Source: Patiria pectinifera (lineage: Eukaryota; Echinodermata; Asteroidea; Valvatida; Asterinidae). Taken from it: a DNA stretch of 64,000 nt. The translations under genes and the position numbers were made by a program. Numbering within the stretch: position 1 is the first letter of the stretch; every line of letters starts with the position of its first letter. The notes under the pieces are model-generated. The model made no database searches. It was given only the letters and a program-made list of their open reading frames with translations, and had not been told where the DNA came from. Shown here in pieces: positions 25,109 to 62,415 of the stretch. Location: positions 10,531,430-10,595,429 of the forward strand of contig CM057129.1 of NCBI GenBank assembly GCA_029964075.1. Reading direction: 5' to 3'.

Positions 25109-25936
25109 ATGAAGATCTGCGTGGCCACCATTCTGTCAATCGCCCTCCTTCTGGGTAACTCTGTCAAGCTCCGAGCTTCCGTTTCTGGGCCGGTTCCCTC
25201 GGACGGCGATGGTCCTGCGTCTCAGGTGTGTCAGCAGTGCTGCCAGGGACCAGCTGCAATACCCGGCATACCAGGTCTGCCTGGGCCAGTAGGACCGATG
25301 GGGCCGTACGGTCAGCCGGGGTCAAAGGGCGATGCAGGTCAGCAAGGTGAGATTGGCCCTATTGGACCTATGGGTGATCGGGGAGCACCTGGGAACACTG
25401 GGTTTAAAGGTGATGATGGGATTGGTCTGCCCGGCAAGGTAGGTCCGAGAGCGCTACCTGGTGTTGTCGGAGGAACCGGAGAAACTGGTGTCAAAGGTCA
25501 GAAGGGTGAGCCAGGGGAGACACCAGACGATTCCAACTAGCGGTTGGCATTCACCGTGGTGAGGACGAGCAGCTCGGATGAATCTACGAGTCACGACACC
25601 CGTTTGCCCTTCCAGCAGACCGAGACCCTTCTGCCGGGTACCAGTTTCGATCTCGAGACCGGCACGTTCACATGTAGTGTGCCGGGCACCTACGTATTTA
25701 CGTTCTCTGTTCTTAAGTTTAGCAACAGCGGTAGCCTTTACATCCAACTTGTTAAAAACAACCACAAGGTGATCACTACCTATGGTACATCAAATCAACG
25801 TGGTCAGGTGTCTGGTAGCGCGGTGCTGGTCCTGCAGCGAGGAGACACGGTGTATCTTACCATGCACGGTAGGGTGCTTGGTGGTTCCAACAATCACTAC
25901 ACCTCATTCAGTGGCTTCCTCCTTTTCTCCGAATAA
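25109..25936 (+). pseudogene. Collagen-C1q protein (C1q-2) with in-frame TAG
   Basis: The same 275-codon exon as C1q-1, opening MKICVATILSIALLLG after a splice acceptor. Codon 144 is TAG (25538-25540) where the paralogues have CAG or similar (SNQ), a single C-to-T change. The frame is otherwise open through the whole C1q domain, ending at 25936. Codon 115 is Ala in GPRALPG instead of the Gly required in a collagen triplet. Normal termination would give a 143-residue secreted collagen stem without a head. Promoter, donor and acceptor look intact. It may be a young pseudogene, a null allele, or a truncated decoy; the Gly change supports relaxed constraint. AATAAA overlaps the distal stop. Confidence 0.85.
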
Positions 25937-32106: not shown

Positions 32107-32422
32107 TAGGGGCAGGGTCGTTGCCAAGTGTAGCGGTGAGGTCAGAGTACCCGATTTAGTTTTTTTTTTAAATGGTCTGCGCATTAAACAGGCGGCCAGC
32201 TCCTAATGCCAGACGGCGTAGTACGGATGTTCTGTCCTCTTTAAATCCGATGGCAGATTTATTTCAGTTAAAATATTATTGCTGTACGTTCCCATCGTGG
32301 TCAAACTCATGGTCCCGGCCGGATGTTGAGATACGATACGTCACTTCAAACTCAGTGGCGTAACCCGGAAAGCTAGGGAGGGCGTCACTCACCACTCAGC
32401 CTGCCTGGGATTCGGGGGCACG

Positions 32423-32451
32423 CATAGACATAAAGAACCTACAGACGGACA
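32423..32451 (+). repeat. Left terminal inverted repeat of the P-like element
   Basis: CATAGACATAAAGAACCTAC then AGACGGACA. One mismatch (C against T at the 20th base) to the right end. Confidence 0.9.
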
Positions 32452-32734
32452 AAAGGGGGCGCAAGGCCGTAATTTCAGTGAAGCCGCCATTTTTAAAAAC
32501 CATGGGCAAACTTGTTCGGCACGTCACACATAAAGCGCACACAATACGCGGCTGTCTGGTGAGGTTCTCCAAGCAGAACGTCAAAGTGAAGGGTAAGTTG
32601 TAGTATTATTACCTTTTATGACAGTAGAACCAACCTGACAATGTGTACATATCATGTATGAAATATCTGGGCATTGAGCAAGGGGGAAAAAAGCAAGTTT
32701 TTAAGGAAATTTTATAGGATATTTTGCCAATAAG

Positions 32735-33755
32735 AATTGATCCAGACGCCACTTTTCTGGTTGACACGGTTGTGCACGATTCAATTGTACTTTTTTTGTA
32801 GCATTTGTTATCATCTGTCCCAGTCACTCACTCACTCAGGCATGTCAGGAAAGAATGTTGTAACCTGACGCTACTTCATTTCAGCGTGAATACGAGGTTA
32901 CAACGATAATATTGGCATGGAGCCAGACTAAAATTTGTCACCGGAAAAAAACAGTAACTGCGCATGTTCAGTGCATATCCGGCAAACTAACATTTACTAA
33001 AGGTTTGCCGTCTCTGGCAAAATATCCACTGCCTAATAACAATGTCACAATGTGGCCAACCAGAACATATCAACTGCCAGAAGAGCATAGAGTGATCTAA
33101 AGAATACAGCATTAGTGTATTCAAATTTTGTTGGAATACTGTAAAGCTATAAGTAATAGGAGTGTGTCACACGATGTTTTACATTTTACATGACTTTTGA
33201 ATTTTTTGAAGTAATTTTTTAAGCGGCTTAAAAAGATTTGAATGGAAAGATTGCCATATACGAAGTTCACTTAACACCCTGTGTACAAACCCTATGAGAT
33301 TGGACTGAGATTGGACTATGAGATTTTCTCACTGCTCAAATTGACTTTGATGACATGAAATTGCTATCTGGGGGCTTGTTAGTCAATACAGAGGAAAATT
33401 AGTGAACTTCGTAATTGGAAATCTTTCCGATTTGAATCAAATCATTTAAATCAAACAACCCTGGCCTTTGTCCTTTATAAATATTCATGAGTTCATTATC
33501 TTGTTAATAATGCCATTGAAATGTGCATGTACACAGATTTAAAGATCGCTTGGGGAAAAAATGTTGCAATCTGACGCCACTTTTTTCTTCATACATAATC
33601 TCAAAGAAGGGCCATTCATTGCAAAAATGGTAATAAGACATGATCCTGGGACTGAGAAACATTTCCAATTTTGTTATTAAATACTAATAAACTTCTTGAC
33701 TCTCGATAGATTTTGTGCACAACTGCTAAAGTAGCGTCAGGTTACATCGTTCTTT
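32735..33755. repeat. Subterminal repeats of the P-like element
   Basis: A ~26-bp motif containing GTAACCTGACGCTACTT occurs at 32851-32876 and inverted at 33728-33754 (24 of 26 matching). A diverged direct copy lies at 33561-33582 (TGCAATCTGACGCCACTT) and a partial one near 32737. Such subterminal inverted motifs serve as transposase-binding or enhancer sites in some P elements; that use here is inference. Confidence 0.55.
33235..33437. repeat. Hairpin-forming inverted repeat
   Basis: About 38-bp arms: 33235 onward reads GATTTGAATGGAAAGATT and 33399-33437 is its imperfect inverse, both including TACGAAGTTCACT or its complement. About 125 bp separate them. Possibly a small MITE inside the element's 5' non-coding part. 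Confidence 0.5.
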
Positions 33756-34064
33756 CTGATCGCGCATACAAATTTTGAATTTGCACAAGTTCTAAATTTG
33801 TGTTCAACACCATTAAAAGTCATTCATTTCTTTGCTACTTGCAGTCAAGTCTGAAGTTTAGACAACTTCCATTGACATTCTATTTTCCTATTCCGTGTTT
33901 ATCCTCAACTGAGCTTTAATTTGGAAGTGCCTATAATTATAAAGATATTACATACACCATGTAACTTGATAATGAAATATGTTTGTAATAATATAAGATC
34001 ATTTTTAATAAACCTTTGTTTTCTTTTGTATTTGTTTTGCAGAATCTAAAATGATGCACAAACA

Positions 34065-34671
34065 ATGCCTCGAACTTGTGTAGCATGGGGCTGTAAACAG
34101 CGATATTCACAAGAAGCAAGGTGAATGGAATTACATTCCACTATATTCCGAAGGACCTCACCAGACGACGCCAGTGGCTTCATAACATGCGTTGGGATGG
34201 CTACGATCCAGCAAGGCAATTTTCGAGGCATTTCGAGCCAGAGTCTTTCAAAACAGGCTGTAATAACAAAATCCTAAAGAGAAATGCTCTGCCTACATTT
34301 TCGAATTTCCGAAACACCTTCAGCCGAGGCCCTTTAAGGAGCGTCGGGTATTGAATCTTGCTGAAGCTCGTGAAAAAGCCAATTCCCTTCTGGAACCCAA
34401 CGAAGACCTGGATATGCGTAGAAAGATAGTGACAGCTGTCCAGAGTGATCACGGATTGTACTCGTTGTCATCAGAGCTCTATCAAGTGAAGAAGTGTGTG
34501 AACAACTGGAGAGATAAGTGCGAATCTCTGCAAGCCAAGATCAATGCACTCCGAGTCAAAATTGTCGAAAATCCCTCGCAAACTCAGCACTCCGAGGGCT
34601 TCTGACAGACATAAAGCGCAAGGAGCTGCTAAGCGAAGAAGACGCCTTGGCATTGGAAGAGCACTTTGAAG
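34065..34671 (+). pseudogene. Transposase exon 1: THAP finger and coiled coil, frameshifted
   Basis: Follows the acceptor TTTTGCAG at 34042. MPRTCVAWGCKQRY supplies the first two THAP ligands (Cys5, Cys10). The frame then breaks at about 34113-34125 and continues as NGITFHYIPKDLTRRRQW. The expected third ligand in the C-x2-H motif is Phe (QFSRHFEPESF), while His is kept; the closing AxPTF-like ALPTF follows. Further frame changes lie near 34345 and 34515-34570, with the coiled-coil segment LAEAREKANSLL between. Donor GGTAAA at 34672. Confidence 0.75.
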
Positions 34672-35150
34672 GTAAAATTATAACAATATTTTTTGATGCA
34701 TGGAAATACTACAATGTACCTGTGTCACATATCAGAAAAAAAAACAGTTCTAGTACAAAATGTACATATGAAGTTAATAGTTTGGATAATGGAATACCAG
34801 ATATCCATTAAACAAGCTTTGAGAAAATAACTTCAAAAAGAACTTTTATACCGTGCACAATTGTGAAATTTGCATAATAAATAATTTCATGAAAGTCCTG
34901 AAAAATTTAATTTAAAAACTTTTCAAATTGTCAGGTGCATGGGCTTTGTGCATTTCCTTTCTGTAAAATTGGGTCTATGTTTATAAATCTTAATTCAATC
35001 AGGCTACATCCTTAATGCCGTCTGAAAAGCACTTTTCTTTTAATTTGTGTTGAAGAAATTGATGAAGGTGATATGCATGTAGAGGGATAACAAGTTAAAG
35101 GCAAAATATATTTTACAAACGATGGTTCTCTTTGCACTGTCCACACTTAG

Positions 35151-35410
35151 GTTCAAAGCTGACTCTGGTGAAATCTCTGATGAGCAAAGGCAAGCATGTG
35201 ACAGAATACGGGAAGGAGGTACGTCAGTTTGCAACAACACTGTACTTCTACTCTCCAAGAGCCTACACATATGTACGGAGGCTCTTCCAGCTGCCATCTG
35301 TGAGTACACTGCGATCTTGGGTCACAAACATCCATGCTCTCCTGGGCTTTTCACAACATGCTCTCAACTATCTGAAGGTGAAGTGCACATCTGGAGATGA
35401 GACCTACCAG
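35151..35410 (+). CDS. Transposase exon 2: helix-turn-helix region
   Basis: Open in one frame, from acceptor CACACTTAG to donor CAGGTGAGG. It encodes YGKEVRQFATTLYFYSPRAY and LPSVSTLRSW, the stretch between coiled coil and catalytic core in P/THAP9 transposases that resembles a helix-turn-helix. Confidence 0.8.
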
Positions 35411-35556
35411 GTGAGGGCTCATTTTTTAAGAAGTTTTTGCAAGGTATTCAATAAATGTGAATCATTATAGGTTTTGCCCTTCACCGACATACATGTATAA
35501 ACACTGTATACTCGGTGTGTTACCACACAAGTGAAAGTTGGAAAAAATCACTCATG

Positions 35557-35615
35557 TAGGACTCAAACCCACGGCCTCCTGCTTTCTACAGACGTCTTAC
35601 CACTCCACCTCAGAG
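35557..35615 (-). mobile_element. tRNA-like SINE, minus strand
   Basis: On the minus strand it reads GCTCTGAGGTGGAGTGGTAA, then GGTTTGAGTCCTAC. This carries A- and B-box motifs spaced as in a tRNA, with a 3' part AGAAAGCAGGAGGCCGTGGG like its partner at 35705. Confidence 0.5.
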
Positions 35616-35704
35616 CTTGCTTGATCAGTTGGCTGGTTCCTCTTGTAATTGCTGTACCAGCTGATATATGTACATGTAGGCTACATCAGATTCAAACCAG
35701 TCAA

Positions 35705-35790
35705 CCGATCCCGCAGGCTCTGTAGTCAAGTGGTAGGACGTCTGCACTAGAAAGCATGAGGCCATGGGTTTGAGTCCCACCAAATGATTC
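35705..35790 (+). mobile_element. tRNA-like SINE, plus strand
   Basis: GGCTCTGTAGTCAAGTGGTA is followed by GGTTTGAGTCCCACC. Partner in opposite orientation to 35557-35615; the 90-bp spacer between them also has weak self-complementarity. Confidence 0.5.
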
Positions 35791-36381
35791 AAAGCATAAC
35801 TCGGCAACTGTTATTCAGCGTTCCAGTAAATAATCGTCCGATATTCATCAAAGAGTCGTCGGATTTCATCTCAAAAAGTGTTTAAAACAGAAAAGGGCAG
35901 GGGTATGATGCAGTTTTAAAGAAAAAACAAGTTGGCGGTGGACTGTATAGCTACAGTGTACTTCGAAATTTCAACTGCTATTTTCGAGGCTAATTCATAA
36001 TTATTTCAATGAATTTTCCGTTTACAACTTTACACACATTGTATCGGTATTATAGTCTCATTTACATAATTTTATGGCATAAAACTGGCTAACAAAGGGC
36101 GCTTCTTATTTTGCGATGTCCACTAGACACATTGTAACTCGAGTTGTGATGTGTCGTAGTGCTTCGTGAAATCAATTGCAGGGGTGTTGCTGGACACCGA
36201 TGAAATGTCAATGAAGCCATCTCACAAGAAGAGTTTCATACTTTGAAGAAAATTATCTAATGAAAGAATAAACAAAATATAATTTGTTTCAACCCAGTAC
36301 ATTGTTAAATTAAAACTGAGGATAAGCATTCAATCAGTAATGCCCACGATCATTGAATGATATCTTCTGTTGTTTTAACAG

Positions 36382-36950
36382 GTTGCTGCTCTGGTAATAG
36401 ATAGTATGCATCTTAAGCAACACGTAGAGTATGATCAAGGTCTGAAGCGAGCATTTGGATACGTTGACTTGGGCATCTTGGCAGAGGAAGACAGTGAAGA
36501 AGTTGCTAAAGAGGCTCTAGTTGTCATGCTTGTAGGACTAAGGGGTCATTGGAAAATACCAGTGGCCTATTACCTGGTTAATGGCATCACAGCCGCTCTA
36601 CAAGCAGGCATAGTGCGAGACACAATCATCCAGTGCCAAGCGTTCAACCTGCGTGTGCTGTCGGTGACTTGCGATGGGACTGAGCACAACATCAAGTCAA
36701 TGAAGCTTCTAGGTGCAGGTTTCAATAAGGATCAACTCCGGCCCTACTTTGAACATCCCACAAGCCGAGGCACATCGGTCTACGTGTTCCTTGACCCGCC
36801 ACACATGATCAAGCTGATCAGAAACCTGCTGCACAAATTCAAATCACTGAAGTGGCCTGGCCATGGAGTTGTCCAATGGGAGATGCTGGAGCGGCTGAAC
36901 AGCCTTCAAGAGACTCATCAACTTCAACTGGCTAACAAAGTCACCAAGAG
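36382..36950 (+). CDS. Transposase exon 3: first part of RNase H-like core
   Basis: Fully open. Catalytic-type Asp at 36400-36402 (VIDSMHLKQHVEYD), then KRAFGYVDLG and VGLRGHWKIPVAYYLV. A second Asp at 36673-36675 (TCDGTEHNIKSMKLLG) is followed by FLDPPHMIKLIRNLL (Asp at 36793). All are conserved P-superfamily motifs. Ends phase 2 at donor AGGTGAGT. Confidence 0.88.
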
Positions 36951-37529
36951 GTGAGTTGATGAAGCAACTATTTATAATGCTCACAAAAACTGGCAACAGT
37001 TTAGAAAGCTGTAAACTGGTAAGCAAATAATTTTGTTCACTTTATATTTGAGGTTGTTTTTAACAATAAGCGCAAGTTTAGTTTACAAAATTGGTTATTT
37101 GTGTTGCTCATTTGTTAGAAAAAGAAATGCTGACAAGTTAGTATGAGTTTCCCACTCCAATGTTAAAGATAACAGCAATTTAGAATCAAAACCAAACAAG
37201 ACAAAAATTCCTGCTTACCAGTCTTACAAAATTGGGCCATGTATAACAAATAATGACTTTTTCAGATTTTCCTTAATACGCTTGTATTTTTACCGAAGAA
37301 AGTTTATTAAAAACTTTTCATGGAACACTTCAATTTTCTAGAGGAGTGAAAGTCAATTCAATTCAAAAATTCAATCCCAAATACTTTATTTATCAATAAA
37401 AAAAGGCAATTGCAAATAAGTTACAAGTGTTTGACCAAGCGCTTTTATTTTTTGATCTAGAAGATTGTCCTCATGTACTTTAGATTGTGAAAGATTATTA
37501 AATAAAATGAATGTTTGTCATTTTTACAG

Positions 37530-38712
37530 ACACATCAACTTTGACTACCAGAAGATGAAGGTCAAACTAGCTGTGCAGTGTGTTGCAAGCCGCTCAGTAG
37601 CGTGTGCCTTGAGGTTTTGTCATTTCAGCAGTGTGCCTGGTTTTGAGAGTGCTGATGCTCTAGCTACAGCAGATGCAATTGATCTGTTAGATAAAACCTT
37701 CGACATATTGAACAGTAGGTCAGTTCAAGCAAAGGGTTTCAAGCGTGCTGTTGTTCCCTCAGAAGGCTGCATTGAACGCACAGAAGAAGTATTTGCTGCA
37801 AGTGAAGAAATGCTGCAGTCACTTGAACAGCTGGATGGAACACCGCTCCTTGATGGCAGACGCAAGACTGGCCCCATGGGACTGCTCATCTCCATCCAGG
37901 TAGTACGCTGTCTTCTTGCTGAGATGCGTGATGGCATCCTACCTCTCAGGTACCTCCTTACATACAAGCTTTCACAAGATCATATTGAGCTCTTCTTCGG
38001 TGCTGTGCGTCTTCGCAATGGCTGTTCATACAATCCAACACCTCGACAATTCCGCACTGCTTTCCGTCGATTGTTGGTCCATGCAGGAAAAGGCGTTGTG
38101 GCGACCAATGGTAACTGTCAGGCACAAGATGACACAGCTGTTGTCACATTACCGTGGCGTACTGCTTCATCAGTATCTGATCTACCTCAAGCCAGTGATC
38201 ATGAAACTTCCTCCCAAGATCAACAAGAGAGTGTTGAAATGCCACACTCTGGGTGCTTTGTCAAGGACTGTAGTGTGTGCTGTGCAGTTGTGGCTTACAT
38301 AGCTGGTTTTGTTGTGCGGTCAGTTTCGGAGAGAAATCCGTGTGCGGACTGCAACTCTGCTATGAGACATTCTCAGGATGATCCATGTCCAGCTTTGTCA
38401 CTCATCACCATCAAGAACTACAAGACGTATGAAGAGTGCAATTCTGCTTCAGGTCTGATCTACCCTTTTGGTAGCGTGATGACAATTGTCCTAGAGACAG
38501 AGCGACAACTCAGATCTACTAGTCATCAGCTGTCTTCAAAGAAATGCATGGCTACAATCACAACCAAATCTCTGGAAAAGTTGGCTAACCAACCTCTTTT
38601 TCCAAGACTGAGTGACCACATGTTTGATGCAGAGGGTATCGAGTCACATTTCTGGTTGCTTATGAAGAGTATCATCCGCCGCTATGCCCTCACACACGTG
38701 AAAAATGTGTAG
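37530..38712 (+). CDS. Transposase exon 4: insertion domain, catalytic Glu and C-terminus
   Basis: The acceptor TTTTTACAG restores the frame (Arg codon split) into HINFDYQKMKVKLAVQCVAS. The last catalytic residue is Glu at 37987-37989 within YKLSQDHIELFFGAVR, followed by NPTPRQFRTAFRRLL. A Cys-rich stretch (CFVKDCSVCCAVVAYIAG, then NPCADCNSAM) is typical of the C-terminal part of these proteins. Stop at 38710-38712, no frame break. Confidence 0.88.
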
Positions 38713-38820
38713 GGACAAACAGATGCAGCTGGGCAAAACAGGTCTGGGCAACAAGTTACAAAGGACAAGAATCTTTCTGAATTCATAAGTGTGAACTTCC
38801 GGCACATGGTGGCTTGGAGG

Positions 38821-39365
38821 TTGTATACAGGTCAAACAGAATGGCTGCCAGTACCGATCCTTGTGGCAGGCCGTTCTTCAGGAGCTGCTAGCGTACATGT
38901 CGCCCATGTGAACACAGAATTGTTGTTGCAGCAGCAGCTCAACTGTGTCGCCAGCCCAGCGTTGTAGGACTTTGGAGATTTTAAGTACATGTAGTAGACC
39001 TTTGTGCCACACAGTATCGTATGCAGTAGTTAAATCGAGGAAGTCAGCGCCATGCAGTCTTTAAGCGTTGCAGGTATCCATTTTTATTCAATTGATCAGC
39101 AAATCTGTTTGCGCGAAATAGACCATGGCAAAAAGACTAAGGTTTTAAGATGGCGATCGATGGTTTTCAGTTCTCCAGGTTTTGGGTAAACTTTTCTCCG
39201 AAGTAACCCTGAAAGGAAGAGTGCTAGCCATTTTTTGCTGCATGTCCCATATGTTTCAGGAACTTGGGCTGGATGTTGTCATATCCTTGTGCTTTCCCAC
39301 ACTTCAGATCTTTCAAGGCTGTGTTGACTTCTTTGATGGTGATTGGAGTTTATTGTTGTTGTAGT
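38821..39365 (-). pseudogene. Non-LTR retrotransposon reverse transcriptase fragment (jockey/CR1-like)
   Basis: On the minus strand, in order: EVNTALKDLKCGKAQGYDNI with FLKHMG (about 39340-39250), RT motif A in FLDLTTAYDTVWHKGLL (about 39040-38985), and motif B in LKNGLPQGSVLAAILFDLY (about 38885-38825). Stops and frame changes separate them, and both ends are missing. A dead fragment, inserted antisense just past the transposase stop; it may affect the 3'-UTR. Clade assignment beyond non-LTR is tentative. Confidence 0.8.
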
Positions 39366-41018
39366 TTGATCTACTGGTTTTGACTTCCTGAAGGAATGCA
39401 TACTTGTGTAATCTCATGTTTGATCTGTCTGTCAGTCACAGTTTTGCCCACGTTGATGAGATTGCTTGCTACTGCATTTGGTTTGATTGATGGTCTGGTT
39501 GAATTGGGGGGGGGGGGGGGTTGTTGTTTGGAGCCGGGGTTGCGAATGAGGTTCCACTTTTTTTGACGTGAGTGTGTGAAGTTCAAGAAAGTCTTTGAAG
39601 TCTTTGAAATGATGCTTTTAAACATGTATAAAGTTAAACATTTTGGCAGGAAACAATGCCTGAGCGTTAATTTTCCATGATAAGTTTGCCTATGGAGTAA
39701 AATGTTACATGTAAATGTTAAAGTTTTTTCTGGCATACATCATACTGTACATGTAATGTCACAAGGCTCGAGTCGTCTTCTTATTTTTTAATACAAGAAT
39801 GAATTCACCCAGGAGTTTATGGGTACCTGGGAAGGTACGGTAGAGACCAAATTTGATGAAATTGTATGTAAAGCACTTTGAGACCAAGCACCATTATTAT
39901 TATGTATGCACAAAACACCATAACGGACAACCCTTTCATTAAGTCTTGTGCATGTGTTCATGGGTGCTTGTCACAATTTTATCATCTTGTTTTATGACTT
40001 ACAAAACTTGTTCTTGTCAAGATCTTTAAGGATATCTTAAGAATTACAACTAAAGAAATTTCATCTGAGAAAAAGGTTTTTTGGTTACACAAGATATAAA
40101 ATGCGTGGGTACAGGATTAATTTTTTATTGGACAATCAGTTGTGCTTACATGCATGTGCTCATACATTTTCATGCTGCTTCATGGCATGGATGTGGTGAT
40201 GGTTGCGGGTGCATGGAGATTTATATTTTGTTTTGTCAATGATTTTAGCAACTTCATGTATGTCCTCTGGCATTAAGAGTGTTTTTTTTCTGTGCTTAGT
40301 TACTGAGTACGGTCTATGTGCAATAGATGGAGGTTCAGTAAGCAAGACATTTATGTGAAGCGCTACAAAATTTGGCCAAGGTAGTATTTGTTTTAGATAT
40401 GTACTTCACATCTAGTGAATAGACCTACATCAAAATGCTCTAAAAAATTGTACACATTTGACTTCAAGCTTTAATGTCCATCGACCTGTAGAATTGTGCT
40501 GTTTTACTTTTGATTAAAAATATTTTGGGATCTTAATAACCAAAGTATAAAATTCATTACTCAGCCTTCCTCACTACAGGTCAGAAACTTTTTTTTTTTA
40601 AACCTTGGAGTAGACAAGGTACTGAATTATCTTTTCAAAATCATACTTATTTATTTGAAACTGTATTTTATTGTGTATATATTTGTATGCAGATGTTGTA
40701 CATGTACATAATTTATAGAAATTATAGCACATAGAAATTTATCCTTCTATGAATGTTGCTTTGTTTGATTTCAATTGTTACAAATAAATTGAAATTTATC
40801 TTGAAAGCTAATTGTGTATAAGTAATACATTGTATCACTTACAACCAACATATGGCAGTTAGTGCTTAGTGGACATGCTGTATATGAACAGGCCTTTTTT
40901 TCAATAGTGGGTAAATCGCATCTTTGGCTCTCAATAATTCTTTCAAGTTTTATATAAAGTTATTTAATAAAAATAACTATAAATCAGAGATGAGTCTCCC
41001 ATTGGATCTAAGACATCA
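39366..41018. other. P-like element interior without recognised genes
   Basis: A/T-rich. AGCACTTTGAGACCAAGCAC followed by ATTATTATTATG (39867-39905) resembles the 3' tail of CR1/L2-like retroposons. AATAAA occurs near 40783. No coding frame is supported. Confidence 0.5.
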
Positions 41019-41113
41019 GACGTCACGCTTTGTTTACATGTGCGCTTTCCTATTACATGTTCGTCCCTGCTGGCTCAAATAGGGAAGCACACATGTAAAC
41101 AGAGCGTGTCGTC
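41019..41113. repeat. Long perfect-like hairpin
   Basis: Arms of about 37 bp (GACGTCACGCTTTGTTTACA... and its imperfect inverse ending ...AGAGCGTGTCGTC) around a ~22-bp loop. The core TTTACATGTGCGCTTTCCTATT pairs with AATAGGGAAGCACACATGTAAA. Could be a tiny foldback or a structured RNA; no homologue in this window. Confidence 0.6.
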
Positions 41114-41367
41114 ATTATATTTTAGGTCTATTGAAATAATGAACAGAATCTGTGGAGAACACCACCATGACAATCAGACCACACTTTTTGAAGTAACTGG
41201 AGGAATCGTGGCTGACAGTAGTGTAGGCATATAGGTGGGGTGGGCGTGGACCTTGGCCGATGTAGCTCCCTGACCTACATACATGTACAAGTACGTTCTA
41301 GATCGCCTGAAACTAAAGCTCAATGGTTCTGGACTAGTGCTGAATAGTAACACGTGACGTAGCAACC

Positions 41368-41656
41368 AGGGGCAGATCCGGAGGAAGGGTTTGTGGGTCA
41401 GAAACACACCCCCCCCTTCTTTGACTGGGCTCCCTTAGTACAGGCATGCAACTGGGGAGTCGCAAAAAAGAGGAAATTCAAATCTTTCCAAGACTTTATA
41501 CAGTGTTTTTCTATTTTCAATGGCACACATGGGAAGTAAAAAAAGAGGAAATCAGCTGATCCGAGGAAAAGTTGCATGCCTGTTAGTAACAATAAAAGAA
41601 ATAACGTGCCTGATGGGCCGGACCCCCCCCCCAATTTTTCCTGGATCTGCCCATGG
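41368..41656. mobile_element. hAT-like MITE inside the P-like element
   Basis: CAGGGGCAGATCCGGAGG at the left and CCTGGATCTGCCCATG at the right form imperfect inverted termini. GCAAC lies on both outer sides, a possible part of a target duplication. Confidence 0.4.
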
Positions 41657-42101
41657 CAACCGATTATAAAATTTTTTGGTGTAATTTGGGGGGCGTGGGG
41701 GGCAACAGACCCCCCCATGAAACCTTGTCGCCCCAGTCTCCCCCTGAGATTTTGAGTTTTTAAAAATATTATCATTGATCTACATGACGCCCCCTCCCCC
41801 ATGAAATGTTCCAGCGCCCCCCCCCCCGAAAAATTCCTGGTTCGACCCTTTGACTTCCCTTGTTTTGTTAGGCAGTGTTAGGTCTATTTTATACTAGCAA
41901 GTATCCGCCGTAGTATCAAGTGAAACAAACGGGCCGATTTCGATTTCCTCAAAGCATGAAGGAACACAAGAAGGAGTTCGAACGGCCCGCTTAACCCCCA
42001 CAGGGTAATTCTCAACCAATTAGCGAGCTGGCCGACCAGTGGAAAAGGCATGGAGACCTCCTGCTGCGCAAGATTTACGACCTTCATAAGGATCCTTTAC
42101 T
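41657..42101. other. Spacer before the foldback element
   Basis: C and G runs (41625, 41700, 41815) and no recognisable gene. The minus-strand open frame at 41884-42087 has no domain and is not called. Confidence 0.4.
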
Positions 42102-42339
42102 CACAGTGTATGGGCGGCCTTTAGGGCAAAAAAGACAATCACAAAATTAAAGTTAAACAAAAATACAATAAAATCAAATGTACAATAATAAACAATAACG
42201 TACAATTAACAATGAAAATGTAGGACAACAAAATAAAGAAACCCAAAACAAAACTGAATCGTAAAAAAATTAAAAACACAAATTAAACATAACAAATAAA
42301 CATTCGTGTTCAATGTACAATAAACACAAATTAAACTAA

Positions 42340-42672
42340 ACCCAAAATTACTGTAAGTCCCGCGTCGAATGTAAACCCCAAAAGTACTGTAAGCCCAACA
42401 AATTACTGTAAGCCCCGCGATGAATGTATACCCCCAAATAATTACTGTAAGCCCTGCGACGAATGTATACCCCATTTTACTGTAAGGCCCGCGTCGAATG
42501 TATACCCCAAAATTACTGTAAGCCCCGCGTCGAATGTATATCCCAATATTACTGTAAGTCCCGGCCGCGACGAATGTATACCCCAAAATTACTGTATTAG
42601 TCCCGCGACGAATGTAAACCCCAAAATTACTGTAAGTCCCGCGACAAAATTGTAAACCCCAAAATTACTTAA
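42340..42672 (-). repeat. 36-bp tandem repeats, left foldback arm
   Basis: Units of the form CCCAAAATTACTGTAAGCCC followed by CGCGTCGAATGTATAC, with small variants. Inverted relative to 46180-46690. The open frames here (42206-42586) are a by-product of the repeat length being a multiple of three. Confidence 0.85.
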
Positions 42673-42960
42673 AGCGGGGTACCAGTCTACATGGACTGGT
42701 ATACAACAACCCATCACTGCTGCGTGGCCAAGCTACATAGGCTGTACACGTGCAACTTTTGCGTTTATTTGGAGGGGGCGTAATCATACACAAACAACTT
42801 TGTTACATGTCAAGTCGGATTGGAGGGGACATTTTTTTGGGGGGGGGGGCAGCCACCATGATCAATTAATATTGTCAGATTGGGCATTTGTTTCTTTTTT
42901 GAGAAGTGATTTATAGCTGAGAACATAGCAAGGATGGACCGATATGTGCAGGCTAAGTTC

Positions 42961-43767
42961 AGGGAACAATTTTCATTGTTGGAAAATTCCAAAAAAAACT
43001 TTCCAATTTGCCGCCGTGAAGTAAAGTTGATTTAACGGGGAATAAAATTGGGTTTTGTTATCAGCATCAGCAGGAGCGTTCCTCTTTCTTTTAACTTTTT
43101 GGGAAAGGAGTCAAATGATCTTAGGACCGAAGGCTCTGCGAACTGATGTACATTTTTGACTTTATCTTGCGACCAGCATGGCTATATGGTATGGATATCG
43201 GTACCAGTGTAGGTACATAATGCCTAGAGCGTATTTCAGAGACAAATTTGAAAAACGCGAATGCAACAAAAAAGATTTAACCCTTCTTCCTTAGTCAAAA
43301 AGGCGAGATCTCGTGAACGTTACTTGATGGGCTTTTAAAAAGAACTTTTGCAAATGGGAAAGACACTTTGGAAAAATCCAATCAGTTTCACTATGCTTCA
43401 TGAATTTCTCAATAAACGAGCACATTTTTAACAGTATTTAATTACTATTATTTTTTGGTGTGGTCGTGGTGGTGGTGGGGGGAGTGGGTGGCTGAGGGGG
43501 TGCCAGACAGAAGATATATCAGAATGGCGCAATAAGACCGACAGCGGGCGCAATAATTTTGATTAGAGTTTCAAAAATTTCTACGCGTCCGAGTCGTTAA
43601 TTTGCATAAAAAGTGCCCCCACAATTTTTTGTAAAAAACGAGACCGTCTAGTTTAAAAATCGGTGGAATCGTGCGGATATAGCCGAGGATCATCTAGCTT
43701 TTGGGCTTTTATCTCGGAGCAGATTTGATAAAATTAGGGTCCAACAATAAAAATTATTCCCTAAACT
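42961..43767. other. Central unpaired part of the foldback element
   Basis: No open frame of note, a G-rich run near 43455-43500, no gene recognised. Confidence 0.5.
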
Positions 43768-43933
43768 AGCCTGCACATATCGGTCCATCCTTGCTATGTT
43801 CTCAGCTATAAATCACTTCTCAAAAAAGAAACAAATGCCCAATCTGACAATATTAATTGATCATGGTGGCTGACCCCCCCCCCCCCCAAAGAAATTCCCC
43901 TCCATCCGACTTGACATGTAACAGAGTGGCTTC

Positions 43934-46052
43934 GGGTAGCAGACCAGTAAATAAACTTCCATTGACCCCAATGGTAAATGCTCCCACTTCAAAAATTCAG
44001 GAAAAATACTCACAACTCTCCAAGGTGTTCGAGACACACATCAAATTAAAGCTTATTTCATCATCTTTCATTTTCTTTTCAATTTTTGGAGGGTCAACTT
44101 TGAGGAGAAATTTCCATCTGAAGATGATCACCCCTGAAAATAGTCCTGAAGCCCATCGCCATTTTGAAAAACGATGCCTACACTCCATTGCAAAGTAGAG
44201 CGCTTTTAGGGTCCAAATTACATCAAAATTACACAGAACTGCAAGCTCCAAGTCCTGTGCACGGTTTCCACCCATATTTTTTACAAACCCTCAAGTTCAT
44301 GGCCCACAGCATGCTCAAATACCGAAGATTTTGAGGGCATGCAAATCGTGATTTGGCCGGCGCAGGCAATTTCGGACCGATTTACTGGTCTGCACCCTAT
44401 AGAGAAGCGAGGTTTTGAAAAAATTTCTCCAAACCACTTGTACGGCACGAGGAAGGATGGATGACTCATATTTCATCAAAAAATTGCGAAAAAAAAATCT
44501 CTGACTGCGATTTCTGGCCTGAAAACAAGCCCTCTGTTTGCGGCTACCTTACTGTAGGGCGCCCCCAACGGACGTGAGTTTTTGCTCCTTCCGACCCCAA
44601 ATTACCCCCCCCCCCCCTTGTTCGCTCGAAATTGCTGTGATTGGAGGACGGTCCATCGGCCCTATTCAGATTTTGGGCGCATTTGTTGCGGAACCGCCAT
44701 TGGTGACCCCTTTGAAACGCTGCCCCCCAGGTTCCGCCCCCTGAAAAACACTCTGCAAACATTAGACAAAAAACAGTGGATGACGCCATTATGAAACTAC
44801 AGAGAAGCTATGTTTTGAAAAATTTCTCCAAACCACTTGTACGGCACAAAGAAGGATGGATGATTCATATTTCATCAAATAATTGCGAAAAAAAATCTCT
44901 GACTGCGATTTTTGGCCTAAAAACAAGACCTCTCTTTGCGGCTACCTTACTGTAGGCGCCCCCAACGGACGTGAAATGAGTTTTTGCTCCTTCCGACCCC
45001 AAATTACCCCCTTGTTCGCTCGAAATTGCTGTGATTGGAGGACGGTCCATCGGCCCTATTCAGATTTTGGGCGCATTTGTTGCGGAACCGCCATTGGTGA
45101 CCCCTTTGAAACGCTGCCCCAGGTTCCGCCCCCTGAAAAAAACACTCCGCAAACATTTGACAACAAACAGTGGAAGACGCCATTTTGAAACTACAGAGAA
45201 GCGAGGTTTTGAAAAATTTCTCCAAACCACTTGTACGGCACGAGGAAGGATGGATGACTCATATTTCATCAAAAATTGCGAAAAAAATCTCTGACTGCGA
45301 TTTCTGGCCTGAAAACAAGCCTCTGTTTGCGGCTACCTTACTGTAGGGCGCCTCAACGGACGTGAAATGAGTTTTGCTCCTTCCGACCCCAAATTACCTC
45401 CCTTGTTCGCTCGAAATTGCTGTGATTGGAGGACGGTCCATCGGCCCTATTCAGATTTTGGGCGCATTTGTTGCGGAACCGCCATTGGTGACCCCTTTGA
45501 AACGCTGCCCCAGGTTCCGCCTCTGAAAAAACACTCCGCAAACATTTGACAACAAACAGTGGAAGACGCCATTTGAAACTACAGGTAGCAGACCAGTAAA
45601 TAAACTTCCATGGACCCCAATGGTAAATGCTCCCACTTCAGAAATTTGGGAAAAATTCTTACAACTCTCCAAGGTGTTCGAGACACACATCAAATTGAAG
45701 CTTATTTCATCATCTTTCAATTTCTTTTCAATTTTCGGGGTGTCAACTGATGACTTTTAGGGTAGATTTCCATCTGAAGATGATCACCCCTGAAATAGTC
45801 CTGAAGCTCATCGCCATTTTGAAAAACGATGCCTACACTCCATTGCAAAGTAGAGCGCTTTTAGGGTCCAAATTACATCAAAATTACACAGAACTGCAAG
45901 CTCCAAGTCCTGTGCACGGCTTCCACCCATATTTTTTACAAACCCTCAAGTTCATGGCCCACAGCATGCTCAAATACCGAAGATTTTGAGGGCATGCAAA
46001 TCGTGATTTGGCCGGCGCAGGCAATTTCGGACCGATTTACTGGTCTGCACCC
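43934..46052. mobile_element. Composite A-BBB-A insertion in the right foldback arm
   Basis: Two family A MITEs (43934-44397 and 45584-46052, same orientation) bracket three tandem ~395-bp B units. The outer ends are inverted repeats (GGTAGCAGACCAGTAAAT and ATTTACTGGTCTGCACC). TTCG flanks both sides, and the uninterrupted left arm has a single corresponding site near 42800, so the whole block was inserted as a unit or grew by recombination after a single insertion. Confidence 0.7.
44401..45584 (+). repeat. Three tandem B repeats of about 395 bp
   Basis: Units start AGAGAAGCGAGGTTTTGAAA at 44401, 44801 (AGAGAAGCTATG variant) and 45195, and end GCCATTTTGAAACTAC. Close similarity by eye, with differences mainly in C-run lengths. 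Parallel open frames in all three (for example 44538-44744 and 45031-45294) shift frame between units and are not coding. Confidence 0.85.
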
Positions 46053-46179
46053 TTCGTGTATGATTACGCCCCCTCCAAATAAACGCAAACGTTGCACGTG
46101 TACAGTCTATGTAGCGCGGCCACGCTGCAGTGATGGGTTGTTGTATACCAGTCCATGTAGACTGGTACCCTGCTTTAAG

Positions 46180-46690
46180 TAATTTTGGGGTTTATAATTT
46201 TGTTGCGGGACTTACAGTAATTTTGGGGCATACATTCGTTGCGGCCGGGACTTACAGTAATTTTGGGGTAAACATTCGACGCGGGGCTTACAGTAATTTT
46301 GGGGTACGCATTCGTCGCGGCCGGGACTTACAGTAATATTGGGGTATACATTCGACGCGGGGCTTACAGTAATTTTGGGATATATACATTCGTCGCGGGG
46401 CTTACAGTAATTTTGGGGTATACATTCGTTGCGGCCGGGACTTACAGTAATATTGGGGTATACATTCGACGCGGGGCTTACAGTAATTTTGGGATATATA
46501 CATTCGTCGCGGGGCTTACAGTAATTTTGGGGCATACATTTGACGCGGGACTTACAGTAATTTGGGGGTACAGGCCTACATTCGTCGCGGGACTTACAGT
46601 AATTTTGGGGTTTACATTCGTGGCGATACTTACAGTAATTTGGGGGTTTACTTTCTTCGCGGGGCTTACGGTAATGTTGGGTTTAGTTTA
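46180..46690 (+). repeat. 36-bp tandem repeats, right foldback arm
   Basis: About 13 units of the form ACTTACAGTAATTTTGGGGT followed by ATACATTCGTCGCGGG, some with a GCCGG insertion. Inverted copy of 42340-42672, with more units. Confidence 0.85.
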
Positions 46691-46904
46691 ATTTGTGTTT
46701 TATTGTACATTTAACACGAATGTTTTATTTGTTATGTTTATTTTTTTTATTCTTTTACGTTTCAATTTTGTTTTGTTGTCCTACATTTTCATTGTTAATT
46801 GTACGTTATTGTTTATTTTTTTTTGCATTTTATTTATTTTATTTTTGCTAAACTTTAATTTTGTGATTGTCTTTTTTGCCCTAATGGCCGCCCATAACAG
46901 TGTG

Positions 46905-47340
46905 TCTTGCCGCTGCACGAAAAGACAACTTACCTCGCACCGTATACGCGTATTATGCACAAACCATAGCACAAACACATTAAATGACAACTCACACGAC
47001 TCAGACGTGTCAGAAATGCATGACCAACGCAGTGCACTCCAGCATGCCGCGTTTCGCGGCGGTTGTAGGCCTAATTAATTTATTTTGAAATAACACACAA
47101 ATACATAGCTGTACAGCACTGTGAAGTGAAAGTTTCAAAGGGTTTTCAGTCACCATCAATGCGTTTTCGACCGAACTTGTCGATTTGTATCATTCCTTCC
47201 GATGTTATTCCATAGAGTTGTGCACATTTATTCAAAACTCCCGCCCATGGTTTCATACTTAGTCGGGCGCCGTCAAAATTACGGTACCCTGACGTTGATT
47301 TCCATAGGCGCTGTCCGTCTATAGGTTCTTTATGTCTATG
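46905..47340. other. Right end region of the P-like element
   Basis: Unique sequence ending in the right terminal inverted repeat (47312-47340). Inside the end, ACCATGGGC-type and CCGTAATTT motifs mirror those next to the left end. No gene. Confidence 0.65.
47312..47340 (-). repeat. Right terminal inverted repeat of the P-like element
   Basis: TGTCCGTCT then ATAGGTTCTTTATGTCTATG, inverse of 32423-32451 with one mismatch. Confidence 0.9.
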
Positions 47341-47540
47341 GGGGGAGGCGCTTAACTCTTTTGAATGATTACTCCAGAAAATGAGGAGTCTTAATTAAGG
47401 TCCCTTTAATGAACCACGCCAATGAGTAATACTTTGCAGCGTAATATCTCTCGAAAATATTAGGTTTCAAAACGACACACCCTAGATAGTTGAAGTTCTT
47501 ATTACTTTTCTTTTCAAGCTAAATTATTACGCCTTCGTTT
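47341..47540. repeat. Segmental module X, copy 3, right part
   Basis: Resumes at GGGGGAGGCGCTTAACTC and follows copy 1 from 3801 to about 3931. It then jumps to the equivalent of about 4790 (junction CCCTAGATAG/TTGAAGTTC near 47490), a deletion of about 0.86 kb relative to copy 1. Confidence 0.75.
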
Positions 47541-48099: not shown

Positions 48100-51000
48100 G
48101 TGAGTGCTTCTTGAAACAGTCTATTACGATAATTCTGCAAACTTTGGGATAGATCTTTTGTGATATATGATATTGACACAATGTGCTTATAGCCAAAACA
48201 GTGCGCTGTAAATATTTCCGACCATGACGATTCCATTTCTATACGGTTATTTCATAACTTATCATGTACGATATTTGTGGTTGAATCATAAATTCAGGTA
48301 CTATGTTGTATAGAATACAGCTGAATGAGCTCTAGTCTGAACAGTTGATGCGGATTCAGACCAAAATTTTGTGAGGCCAAAATCAGGCAATAATATAGCT
48401 AAGAGCGATTTCATAATAGTCACGATTTTTTTTATTTGTTCGTGATTCCTGTCTGACAATATTTCAGCTCCTACTTACATAGTGCACTCTCGACGCATTT
48501 AATTGTCCTAAATACTGAATAGTGAAAACAACACTATAAATTGTCCCTGGAAGTTTTATAGTTTGTATTGCCATTCAGATTCGCCGGTTTTCCAGTCAAA
48601 CATGGCTGTAGCTTTTCAAGAGTGTATTACATCAAGTTCCTTATTGTTATTGAAGTTCATGCACTTTCACATTTTTTTTTTCAGATGATAAATTTAAACC
48701 TTTTCGTGTTTAACGAAATAAATCTTGCGAAAGCTCGACCGCCCATAATATCAGTATGATCAATCACCTTCTTTATTTTTTCGCTAGTTTTCTCCCTCTG
48801 TTTATTGTCAAACCTGAAATCCCGATGCGATGCGCTCACCTTTTCCGGAAATCACTCTAGCTAATACAGGATTAAAGGTTATGCGGGAAGTTGGCCACGG
48901 AAAAACGTTTAAAGGAAATCGTGACATCTGGAAACATCCTGTCCTATGTTGTGTTATGGAAAATTCGGATAATCTCAATACCTTTTTGCGTAATGTGTTT
49001 TTAAACTGTGTCTTTAAACCATTTCTGTTTATGGGTGCAGGCCAGCAAATCAGTCCGAAATTGCCTTCGCCGGCAAAATCACGATCTGCATGCCCCCTCA
49101 AATTCAGAAATTAAAAAGCATTTTGAGAAGGCCGTGAACTTGATTTTTTTTTAAAAGAAGGTTTAAAGCCGTGTAGAGGACTATGAACTCGTATTTCTAT
49201 GAAATGTGGATAATGATTCGGCCTAAAATGCCTCTATTTTTGCAGTGGGAGGCTGTAGGCGTCCATTTTTCAAAATGGAGATGGAGCTTCAGGCTCTGCT
49301 TTTGGGGTGATCATCTTTGATCACCTAGATTATTGAACCCCCAGAACATTGAACAGAAAAAATGAAGAATGATGAAATATCTTTAATTTGATGTACGTCT
49401 TAGTACAGTCCTCAAAAGTTATGTGTATTTTACCTAAATTTCTAAAGTGGGGACATAAAACTTTTAACATTGGGGTCTATTGAAATGTATTACTGGTCTG
49501 CAACGATAGGTCTAAGCCGTTACTTTCAATCGTTGCAGGATAACAGTGTGTCAATTGTCGGGAATATACTTTAGGGCGCAACGAGCAAATCGGATCATGA
49601 TCAATATCATCACACATTAATGTTTAAATTGCCCCTGGACATGCAAACGAAAACAACAGAAACAGGAGAAAAAAAGGGTGATAAAAAGAAAAGAAGAAGA
49701 GGTGCAAACATCATATTGTTGTTAATTTTAATTGGTACGCGCCGGTGCAACATGTTCCTGGACACCCTCAAAAATTATCAATCGGGAAAAATGATATTTG
49801 CAGGGGGGATGTGCTTTGTCCTCCTCTACACAAAAAAAAGGTCCTGGCGACGCCTATGGCTGGATACATTTTTGTAGAAATCATGTTAAAAGATGAGGTT
49901 TGCACAAATTATTTGAGCGTCAATTTAGAACAGAATCTTCCTTTTAAAAAATGCATGATTTCTTGCCCTAATTTTACCAGGTTCTTCATATTGGTTAATG
50001 TCGAAACAAGCACGAGTTTTTTTATGTTCATGTTGGCCGTGAATACCATCAGCTTTCGTAAAAGAAACCCAAAAAAAAATAAGAGAAGACGAAAATAAAT
50101 AAAAATGAGATATGCATGCAAACTAGAAAAAGATTAACCCTTTATCGTGTTAGCGATAACAAAAGAAATTTGATTGATTGTGAGTATCTTTTTAATTATC
50201 TTTGAGTATTTCCACAGAGTGATGACAACAATTAAGAAACTGGTTATCAATATGGTCTAAATATAAAAACAGTATTTTTTTTTTGCGCAATAAAACCTCA
50301 TTTGGGCGTGTGCTCAAAATGCTGGCAGCTGTTTCTATAATCTAGCCACCTAACAATGTTCCTGTCAGTGTGTCCTTCCCCTGACAATTATAACAAAAGT
50401 GTGTAGAATTGCTTCATGAAATCGAAAGTCATGTCATTTTATCATTTGTTTTAACCCCTAAAGGGGCCGGATTATTTTGACCATCTCTCAGCCTGGGAGA
50501 GAGGCGGGTACATCAACTCTTCATGAACAAACCCAAGAAATTTCATAACTAAAGGTCAAAAGAGGTTTTTAAAATTATGGCTAATTAATTATTCATATAG
50601 TATAAATGGTAATTCTGGTCTGTGTACACGACGTGAAATGGGAAAATTCATTTTGACGGCGCGTAGCGCCAACCCCTCGTCGTGATTTTTCATGTTTTTG
50701 GTTTCAAAGAGATGCGCAAGGCTCGAGGCTAAAAAGTCATAAAAGCTCAGGTCGCGAAAAAAGCTATCCGCCCCCTCCGGCCCCTCTTAGGGGTTAACAC
50801 TGCCAATTTGTATTTTCAAGGGGCGGATCCAGAGAGTTTATTGCCGGGCGAAGTTTGTGCCGGGAGAAAGGTTGAGGGTGGAAGGGCTCTCTCGGGTCTA
50901 ATTCTTGCCTCTTTTTTGATAAATATTCGGTCACTGCAAATGGGGGAGGCGCGCCCTCCGCACCCGTAGAGCCGCCACTGATCTGGCTAAACTGCCGAAT

Positions 51001-52153
51001 TTTATTAAACATGTGTATGACTTTTGTGAACGTAAGCATTAGAAGTTGAATTCCCGAGCTGGACTGAAATCCAAAAGCAAAATAAAATTCAATGCAAATA
51101 CGTCAATTCCCACTACTTTTTATGCGAATAGTGGGAGATACCCCTTAAATAATTTGATCGTACCGCTAAATTCAACTGGGTTTGAGAAGACTTACACGTT
51201 TTTATGCGAATTTGAAAGAAGTGTTCACAAATTGAATGAAAGCAAGGTGTGAAATTGGACGGGAAAAAAAAACATATTTAAGTGAAGAATATGCTGTTTA
51301 AAAACTCACATTAATTATAAAAGCTTTCAAAAATGATTCAATGACTTACTAGTGCCTCAAAACTACACAGATTTTTTTTTTTTTTTGTATAATGAATTTG
51401 AATAAATTGTATAATTAATTTTGAATAAAGGCTTTGAACGAAAGCGTTTGAATCAATTTGATGTTGATTTCAGATAGCATTCAGGTTCCTGTGAAAATTA
51501 TCTGACAGCGCCATTAACACATGTTGCTTTTTCTGGGCGTAATTCGGTCACGAAAATGCAAATTATCTTACGACCATTGTTTTTATTTGTGAGAAAAATT
51601 GTTCCTGATTTTTGAAATGATTATTGATCCAAAAGTGATAAAAACCTCACAATTGTATTAAAATCAATGATTAAAGTATTTCTTTCTTTACTCAAACATA
51701 AACGTTACCAGTTTTCTTTTGTTTACTATTTTTTCAGCCTACAGTGAACTCCTCTTTTTGATCTCTTCTTGGATCTGATCTTCAAGACTTCATGACCGAA
51801 CCATCGAGGTCGGTGTGATGATGTTTAATTGATTATAGTCATGACCGTGGAAAGGGCGTGCCGTCACATAAGAAAAATAATGTAATTCGGTCTCCTTTCC
51901 AGAAACTTTTATCGGCGGGCAAAACAATAATACTAACTAGTGTGGATTGCCCGTAGTTGCCATTTTGCAGCAACAGATTTAAAAAGAACCCAATCCTTTG
52001 TATTTACATGTTATCCCCTTGCTCTTTGATAGGCCACTGCCGACACATTCTCTGAATAATGATTCCCTCCAAATTATGTTTCGTCATACAAATTCTTCAT
52101 TTTATGTAGTGATTTTGGTGGTAATTTTAGGCCCTGTATTGTTTTTCTTTCAG
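48100..52153 (+). other. Intron of C1q-3
   Basis: Collinear with the introns of C1q-1 and C1q-2, with family A MITE at 49033-49502 and hAT-like MITE near 50815-50982. Small insertions relative to both paralogues increase toward the gap. Acceptor TTTTCTTTCAG ends at 52153. Confidence 0.6.
49033..49502. mobile_element. MITE family A, copy in C1q-3 intron
   Basis: Starts GGGTGCAGGCCAGCAAATC, ends TTACTGGTCTGC; same position as 6415 and 22119 by shared flanks. Confidence 0.65.
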
Positions 52154-53015
52154 ATGAAGATCTGCGTAGCCACCATTCCTGTCAATCGCCCTCCTTCACA
52201 GGTAACTCTGTATCCAAGCTTCCGAGCTTCCGTTACTGGGCCGGTTCCCCACGGATGGCGATGGTCCTGCGTCTCAGGTGTGTCAGCAGTAAGCTGCCAG
52301 GGACCTGCTGCAATACCCGGCATTACCAGGTCTGCCTGGGCCAGTAGGACCGATGGGGCCGTACGGTCAGCCAGAGGTCAAGGGCGATGGCGGGTCAGCA
52401 AAGGTGAGATTGGCCCTCATTGGACCTATGGGTGAGCGGGGAGCACCTGGGAACTACTGGGTCTAAAGGTGATGATGGGATTGGTCTGCCCGGCAAGATA
52501 GGTCCGAGAGGGCTACCTGGTTTTGCTTATGAACTGGAAACTGGTGTCAAAGGTCAGAAGGGTGAACCAGGGGAGACACTGTTCCATCTCCAACAAGCGG
52601 GTGGCATCTCACCGTGGTGAGTGACAAGCAGCTCGGATACCTCTACGAGTCACGACTTGCCTGTTTGCCCTTCCAGCAGACCGAGACGCTTCTGCCAGGT
52701 ACCATCTTCGATCTCGAGGCCGAGGTACGTGTTCCAACTGTAGTGTGCCGGGGCACCTACGTATTTACGTTTGCTGCTCTTAAGTACATGGCAACTTAGC
52801 GGTGAGTTTACATCCATCTTGTTAAAAACAACCACAAGGTGATCACCACCTATGGTGCAGCAAATCAACGAGGTCAGTTGTCTGGAAGCGCGGTGCTGGT
52901 TCTGCAGCGTGGAGACACGGTGTATGTTAAGCACATGCGCGGTAGGGTGTTTAGCCATCCCACCTTTCACCACACCTCATTCAGTGGCTTCCTCCTTTAC
53001 CCGGAATCAATTAAT
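52154..53015 (+). pseudogene. Collagen-C1q protein (C1q-3), many frameshifts, 3' end in gap
   Basis: Starts MKICVATI after a splice acceptor. Recognisable pieces of every part of the family protein follow in shifting frames: SVTGPVP, the CQGPAAIPGI collagen start, KGDDGIGLPGKIGPRGLPG, VKGQKGEPGE, LPFQQTETLLPGT, then GSAVLVLQRGDTVY and HTSFSGFLLYPESIN, running into the N gap without reaching a stop. The lesions are mostly 1-3-base insertions relative to C1q-1 and C1q-2 (for example CAGCAGTAAGCTGCC for CAGCAGTGCTGCC). Substitutions are few, so poor consensus sequence at a contig end is as likely as true decay. The underlying gene may be intact. Confidence 0.8.
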
Positions 53016-53515
53016 NNNNNNNNNNNNNNNNNNNNNNNNNNNNNNNNNNNNNNNNNNNNNNNNNNNNNNNNNNNNNNNNNNNNNNNNNNNNNNNNNNNNN
53101 NNNNNNNNNNNNNNNNNNNNNNNNNNNNNNNNNNNNNNNNNNNNNNNNNNNNNNNNNNNNNNNNNNNNNNNNNNNNNNNNNNNNNNNNNNNNNNNNNNNN
53201 NNNNNNNNNNNNNNNNNNNNNNNNNNNNNNNNNNNNNNNNNNNNNNNNNNNNNNNNNNNNNNNNNNNNNNNNNNNNNNNNNNNNNNNNNNNNNNNNNNNN
53301 NNNNNNNNNNNNNNNNNNNNNNNNNNNNNNNNNNNNNNNNNNNNNNNNNNNNNNNNNNNNNNNNNNNNNNNNNNNNNNNNNNNNNNNNNNNNNNNNNNNN
53401 NNNNNNNNNNNNNNNNNNNNNNNNNNNNNNNNNNNNNNNNNNNNNNNNNNNNNNNNNNNNNNNNNNNNNNNNNNNNNNNNNNNNNNNNNNNNNNNNNNNN
53501 NNNNNNNNNNNNNNN
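53016..53515. other. Assembly gap, 500 N
   Basis: Exactly 500 N, a conventional placeholder of unknown true size. It removes the last codons and 3' end of C1q-3 and possibly another module X. Confidence 0.99.
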
Positions 53516-62225: not shown

Positions 62226-62415
62226 TTGTACATTAAAAACCACCCCGCGTAAGGATAATCATTCATTTCTTTTTCAAACGACGACAACTTTTCACAAGTC
62301 TTGCTTAGATGTGATTCCCAGTTTGTCTGCATGACTTCAATATTGTTTTCTCTATTTTTCCCCTCATTTCATTTGTTCTCATATACACGTGTTTTATTGT
62401 TATTTTTCTTTACAG

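Follow-up and report, generated by a model that had tools for sequence, protein, structure and literature searches.

A large P element relative, probably broken, inserted and invaded within a C1q gene cluster of Patiria pectinifera and then copied

The segment at positions 32423-47340 of a 64,000-nucleotide stretch of Patiria pectinifera DNA (hereafter the window, meaning the whole stretch analyzed) is almost certainly a cut-and-paste DNA transposon of the P superfamily, belonging to a multi-copy family in a 613.5-Mb genome. It is a large relative, probably broken, of the P element of the fruit fly. There is also very little doubt about its history: the element was inserted in one repeat of an immune-type (C1q) gene cluster, a second mobile element then jumped into it, and the whole was afterwards copied together with its surroundings. 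It is an unreported member of an already known kind of transposon and, as a P element, it is ordinary. The locus provides an ordered case history, with a paralogous empty site, an insertion, a nested insertion, a block duplication and decay, in which the growth of a C1q-type gene array took a decayed transposon with it. Both the assignment to the P superfamily and the two boundaries, already proposed in a first-pass annotation of the sequence, are backed by the ends of the element, by Pfam domains, by the termini found in the genome and by alignment with the empty site. That annotation holds overall; it had not included a nested 4.8-kb insertion, the broken state of the THAP region, a segmental duplicate and possible excision footprints.

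The element is bounded by 29-bp terminal inverted repeats, at 32423-32451 on the forward strand and at 47312-47340 on the reverse strand. Their sequences agree at 28 of 29 bases and the single mismatch, which had been noticed earlier, is at base 20, where the left end carries a C and the right end a T, as do both ends of a 1,233-bp relative found elsewhere in the genome (L006). Terminal inverted repeats of about 30 bp are a feature of the P superfamily, and in L006 the agreement reaches 29/29. Subterminal inverted repeats, another feature of the superfamily, are also present. Indeed, the 11-bp sequence AAACCATGGGC is found at element base 75 (32497-32507, forward strand; exact in L008, a lone left end, and with one mismatch in L006) and at base 88 from the right end (47243-47253, reverse strand; exact in L006). 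By our estimate, a comparison of the two 450-bp ends would yield about 0.04 such 11-bp matches by chance. Past the 29 bp, the only words shared by the first 450 bases of the two ends are one of 11 and one of 10 bases.

Within the element, five domains of P-type transposases are found above the curated Pfam cut-off: THAP, Tnp_P_element, the N-terminal part of RNase H, the GTP-binding insertion and the C-terminal part of RNase H. The domain set of the superfamily, with a THAP domain, a P-type helix-turn-helix and an RNase H split by a GTP-binding insertion, is therefore present, carried by separate open frames of the forward strand. The THAP coding region, which is broken, covers 34065-34351 (PF05485, 4.2e-10 for 34097-34351). 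On its 3' side, an open frame at 34267-34605, in a third frame, matched none of the Pfam families; judged by its position only, it is probably a part of the transposase. Next come the Tnp_P_element helix-turn-helix part (35099-35470; PF12017, 9.8e-18), the N-terminal part of RNase H with the start of the GTP-binding insertion (36379-36954; PF21787, 2.6e-36; PF21788, 3.8e-10), and the rest of this insertion, followed by the C-terminal part of RNase H and a THAP9-C-like tail (37456-38712; PF21788, 4.4e-17; PF21789, 1.3e-16). The match of the tail to THAP9_C (PF22824, E 0.005) is below the Pfam cut-off. For the two pieces searched against PDB sequences, the sole match at E 0.001 was the Drosophila P transposase (6p5a/6pe2), with an E-value against 6p5a of 6.2e-13 for 37456-38712 and a weak one of 7.1e-4 for 36379-36954. 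The acidic motifs VIDSMHLK, CDGTEHN and QDHIELFF occur in the transposase frames, and their acidic residues are candidates for the catalytic positions of a P-type transposase. The D of CDGTEHN and the E of QDHIELFF align with a D and an E of 6p5a; VIDSMHLK is outside the alignment. Folding of 36379-36954, in the RNase H part, from the single sequence gave an uninformative model (mean pLDDT 35).

The presence of a THAP-type transposase gene in the element, as first annotated, is thus correct with regard to its P-type domains, but the THAP region is interrupted by a frame change and a stop. The start of this region (from 34065) and its main part are in different frames, and a stop codon at 34122-34124 follows the first 19 codons. 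Moreover, a Phe occupies the position of the third zinc ligand, expected to be a Cys; here we assume the C2CH zinc pattern of the THAP domain, on which we read the Phe as replacing the third ligand. Therefore, the gene is most likely broken. The transposase is known from separate open frames alone, and unseen introns could be the source of some of the frame changes. Judging from its sequence, the window copy is probably immobile as an autonomous element, without a transposase of its own, but its ends are intact enough that it might still be mobilized in trans.

The termini give access to the rest of the family. An exact search of the genome with the 13-base terminus gave 305 places (158 + 147) vs. 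31 (14 + 17) for the reversed word, used as the control for these counts. Pairing was carried out with the exact 13-mer on contigs C1-C10. Among the first 100 of the 305 places listed, 62 termini form 31 inward-facing pairs less than 25 kb apart, with no outward pair and one same-direction pair, and 38/100 have no exact inward partner within 25 kb. The 31 pairs include the window element and its duplicate (2/31). Their spans, for these same 100 places, are 29, 29, 33, 35, and 46 bp (5/31), 0.72-2.07 kb (12/31), 4.25-5.67 kb (8/31), and 13.6-20.0 kb (6/31). Eight loci were read, corresponding to the two ends each of the window element, of its duplicate and of the 1,233-bp copy, to the lone left end L008 and to a lone terminus, L001. 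L006 is an independent complete copy, bordered on both sides by a perfect 8-bp duplication, GGCATGCC; the 8-bp target-site duplication of the P superfamily is thus found in 1/1 independent complete copies read. It matches the window element at 32423-32588, 41357-41442 and 47034-47340. The first base of L008 coincides with that of the left end of the window element, to which L008 is 94% identical over 287 columns, and the similarity of L001 to the window family is confined to the outermost 17-21 bases. Further copies of the terminus and 8-bp duplications beside them had been anticipated from the window, and the counts, the orientation of the pairs and the L006 copy agree with this expectation; the 38 unpaired termini and the short match of L001 count against the family reading.

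The insertion can be examined at the site that it occupied. The target is found uninterrupted at 3797-3808 (forward strand), in module 1 of the surrounding array. Indeed, when the left and right flanks of the element are joined, the alignment passes through the junction with module 1 (3676-3935), so that the flanks do meet at the place first indicated. The right flank starts with GGGGGAGG, the right copy of the 8-bp target duplication (47341-47348, forward strand); it has five G and does not read GGGGAGGCG, as had been written in the first-pass annotation. Compared to it, the module 1 site has one G fewer. A second paralogous site, in module 2 (GTTCGGGGGAGGCGCTTAACTC) at 16648-16655 (forward strand), corresponds to the right half only; it carries letters identical to those of the right flank and agrees with that flank only. 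On the left side, the flank GGGGGCACG (32414-32422, forward strand) would represent an altered copy of the target duplication, and the same letters are found beside the duplicate at C1:10422714. Under an 8-bp duplication, it takes about one single-base insertion and one substitution to turn GGGGGAGG into GGGGGCACG. An 8-bp duplication with a mutated left copy, as had been suggested, is therefore plausible, but imperfect. The insertion is supported, but calling it proven was a little strong, given this imperfect duplication and the formal possibility of a precise loss from module 1.

Mismatched flanks would also be produced if the left and right ends came from two P insertions, or if the copy had been re-joined after a hybrid-end event. 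Besides the inexact repeat formed by GGGGGCACG and GGGGGAGG, such an origin would fit the C at base 20 of the left terminus, where the right end and both L006 ends have a T. However, both flanks run on into one paralogous module around a single site, and the transposase parts and subterminal repeats follow each other in the expected order. We consider a composite origin of this kind quite improbable. An assembly artefact is more doubtful still, to the point of being hardly credible. Even if the array around the window is repetitive and an N run occurs at 53016-53515, this run is the only one in the window; no N is found within 32423-47340, where an assembly join would have contradicted the earlier description, and a separate copy of the element starting 141 kb away has the same junctions. 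A single insertion into one module accordingly remains our reading of the locus.

Part of the length of the element is contributed by a foldback-like block of about 4.8 kb, at 42109-46896. This block has long inverted arms, made up in part of 36-38-bp tandem repeats. It starts with TATGGGCGG, ends with the reverse complement of TATGGGCGG and is flanked on both sides by the 6-bp repeat ACAGTG. The L006 relative matches the element on both sides of the block and not within it. Most simply, the block would be a separate and later insertion into the P element. Its arms were also considered as the ends of a Galileo-like element (42.1-46.9 kb), a proposal that was rejected since the arms terminate inside the P element and are bordered by a flanking repeat of their own. 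Inside the block are two short inverted-repeat elements, copy 1 at 43935-44398 (464 bp), with relatives at 6415, 22109 and 49033, and copy 2 at 45584-46053 (470 bp), 94.7% identical to copy 1. Repeat analysis places three tandem 394-bp units between them (44397-45584). Inverted-repeat elements of about 465 bp also occur in the modules, at 6415-6882, 22109-22579 and 49033-49504, as well as in L007 (2596-3012), close beside the 1,233-bp P copy.

The 14.9-kb length could instead be the mark of a distinct giant P subfamily, carrying the inner repeats as cargo, and not the accident of a nested insertion. The separation of the 13.6-20.0-kb pairs (6/31) from the 4.25-5.67-kb class (8/31), among the first 100 of the 305 places listed, goes in this direction. 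However, the window copy and its segmental duplicate account for two of these six large pairs, and the four others, on contig C7, are known by their span only and could each consist of two different elements. The flanking repeat proper to the block at 42109-46896, and the 1,233-bp relative that matches around this block and has no match to it, also argue against cargo. We therefore regard a giant subfamily as unlikely and keep the nested insertion as the explanation for the block. On contig C7, 4/6 of the 13.6-20-kb pairs are grouped (G000:C7 12851870-12871834, 14707546-14721194, 15263582-15279744 and 29660561-29679152, from terminus pairing among the first 100 of the 305 places listed). To the left of the block, 41024-41108 forms an imperfect palindrome, perhaps a small inverted-repeat element. 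An Rfam match to mir-4716 at this position was rejected as a microRNA, since it occurs on both strands, is below the gathering score and coincides with the imperfect palindrome; at the gathering score, the Rfam search of the whole window gave no match.

A second copy of the element is located at C1:10422714-10437038 (14.3 kb), starting 141 kb away. It has the same flanks as the window copy, including the altered left flank, and was for this reason discarded as a second insertion. Identity between the two copies is 98.0% over 3,020 and 97.6% over 3,027 aligned columns, and the second copy also contains the right arm of this insertion within the P element (L003). Taken on its sequence, C1:10422714-10437038 is a segmental duplicate. 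Since the same odd left flank is present there, the change in this flank predates the segmental duplication. In the window, the modules differ by 8-20% in pairwise comparison (ten matches of more than 1 kb). The insertion took place after the duplication of the modules, as first deduced from the uninterrupted paralogous site at module 1, and before the copying of the block starting 141 kb away. The view that it is not recent is supported; the block copy carries the same junction and the same altered left flank.

The events can be put in the following order. A module would first have been duplicated in the tandem C1q/collagen array, and the P element would then have inserted in one of the modules. 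The change in the left flank and the 4.8-kb foldback-like insertion would have followed, in either order. Finally, the block with its flanks and its nested insertion would have been copied to the site starting 141 kb away. The breakage of the transposase frames, now present, may have occurred before or after this copying. By analogy with P-element biochemistry, the transposase of the family would recognize the vicinity of the 29-bp ends and of the subterminal repeats (11 bp), bind there and excise the element with a 17-nt stagger, integration would involve an 8-bp staggered cut of the target, and the short copies would be mobilized in trans.

Excision of this type may have left traces in the genome. 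The five short inward pairs (29, 29, 33, 35, and 46 bp) are likely to be P-type excision footprints, an interpretation that adds to the main reading and does not compete with it. The cut made by P transposase is staggered, with one strand broken 17 nt into the element (available part of PMC7776569). Among the excision sites joined in Drosophila mutant for spn-A, some retain as many as 17 nt from each end, enclosed by two 8-bp duplications, with short microhomology or insertions at the junctions (Table 1 in the available part of PMC2895639). A footprint would thus arise if the staggered cut left no more than 17 nt of terminus on each flank and the gap was then closed by end joining, with small overlaps or insertions. 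The observed spans are grouped about 34 bp (2 x 17); after the 46-bp pair, the next longest of the 31 pairs measures 718 bp (first 100 of the 305 places listed). Part of the spn-A excision products show the expected anatomy, but many events in the same table lost most of the ends (PMC2895639, same part). Moreover, the five candidate sites are known by their span alone. At the lone terminus L001, similarity is lost 17-21 nt in, beside ATTGTA, with ATTGTACC on the other side. This would be in line with a footprint; however, 21 nt match the left-end variant of the window terminus, ATTGTA overlaps a possible terminus, and another subfamily sharing the tip alone would look the same. L001 was therefore not retained as a proven footprint made of 17 nt and a 6-bp repeat; it may be a one-sided footprint, and is ambiguous.

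On balance, we lean towards the view that the genome preserves a fossil record of a single P family, with germ-line excision footprints, closed over 17-nt overhangs, frequent enough to be counted (5/31 pairs, first 100 of the 305 places listed). If this is true, sequence by itself would reveal, outside Drosophila and with no experiment, both the stagger of the P-type cut and the way in which a non-model animal joins broken ends. If the short pairs are footprints, the unusual 17-nt stagger known from Drosophila would apply to a further animal, and the family would document germ-line end joining as it occurs in nature. In the literature, judged mostly by titles, we found no study that counts P footprints across a whole natural genome, and the words “footprint” and “excision” are absent from the available part of a text on the D. 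melanogaster P element (PMC5602686).

The family can be compared with known systems, as described in the available parts of the papers cited. The family shares with the Drosophila melanogaster P element its ends of about 30 bp, which start with CAT, the 8-bp duplication, the 11-bp length of the subterminal repeats and the P-type domains of the transposase (PMC7776569; PMC2895639). In contrast, the Drosophila element is 2.9 kb long vs. 14.9 kb for the window copy and the terminal sequence differs past CAT. The similarity to the Drosophila transposase 6p5a is distant (E 6e-13 and 7e-4). In Anopheles gambiae, P masters of 4.2-7.5 kb have 27-31-bp ends and 8-bp duplications, as does the window family with its 4.25-5.67-kb class, and short derivatives of 205-2450 bp, the P-MITEs, have their counterpart here in the 0.72-2.07-kb class (PMC1562414). 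No 14-20-kb class appears in this part of the mosquito study, and the window copy differs further by its nested foldback-like element. Zebrafish Pdre2/THAP9 resembles the window family by its ends starting with CATA (CATACCTGTCAAC), its subterminal repeats, its 8-bp duplications and its internally deleted copies; however, its ends are 13 bp long vs. 29 bp here and its subterminal repeats are distant, vs. 75-88 bp in (PMC10983969). Galileo also belongs to the P superfamily and has a THAP transposase, but its own ends are foldback-like and 0.5-1.2 kb long, whereas here such arms belong to a separate nested insertion (PMC3688188). The ends of the window element agree over 29 bp and not over 0.5-1.2 kb, and the element is not Galileo. 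Finally, THAP9-like genes are mentioned in sea cucumber (PMC13228809).

The modules around the element hold C1q/collagen genes in a tandem array of four copies. Copies 1 (9172-10107) and 4 (62335-63243) are open through both domains, and copy 2 (25013-25933) has an in-frame stop between the collagen and C1q domains. Copy 3 (51983-53014), assigned by similarity to the other copies, is split over frames and ends at the assembly gap. The run at 53016-53515, just after this C1q copy, consists of exactly 500 N and is likely a scaffolding gap. Elsewhere in the window, an open reading frame at 10539-11577 contains a GIY-YIG domain (PF01541, 9.9e-6) and overlaps another long open reading frame; it is reminiscent of a Penelope-like retroelement.
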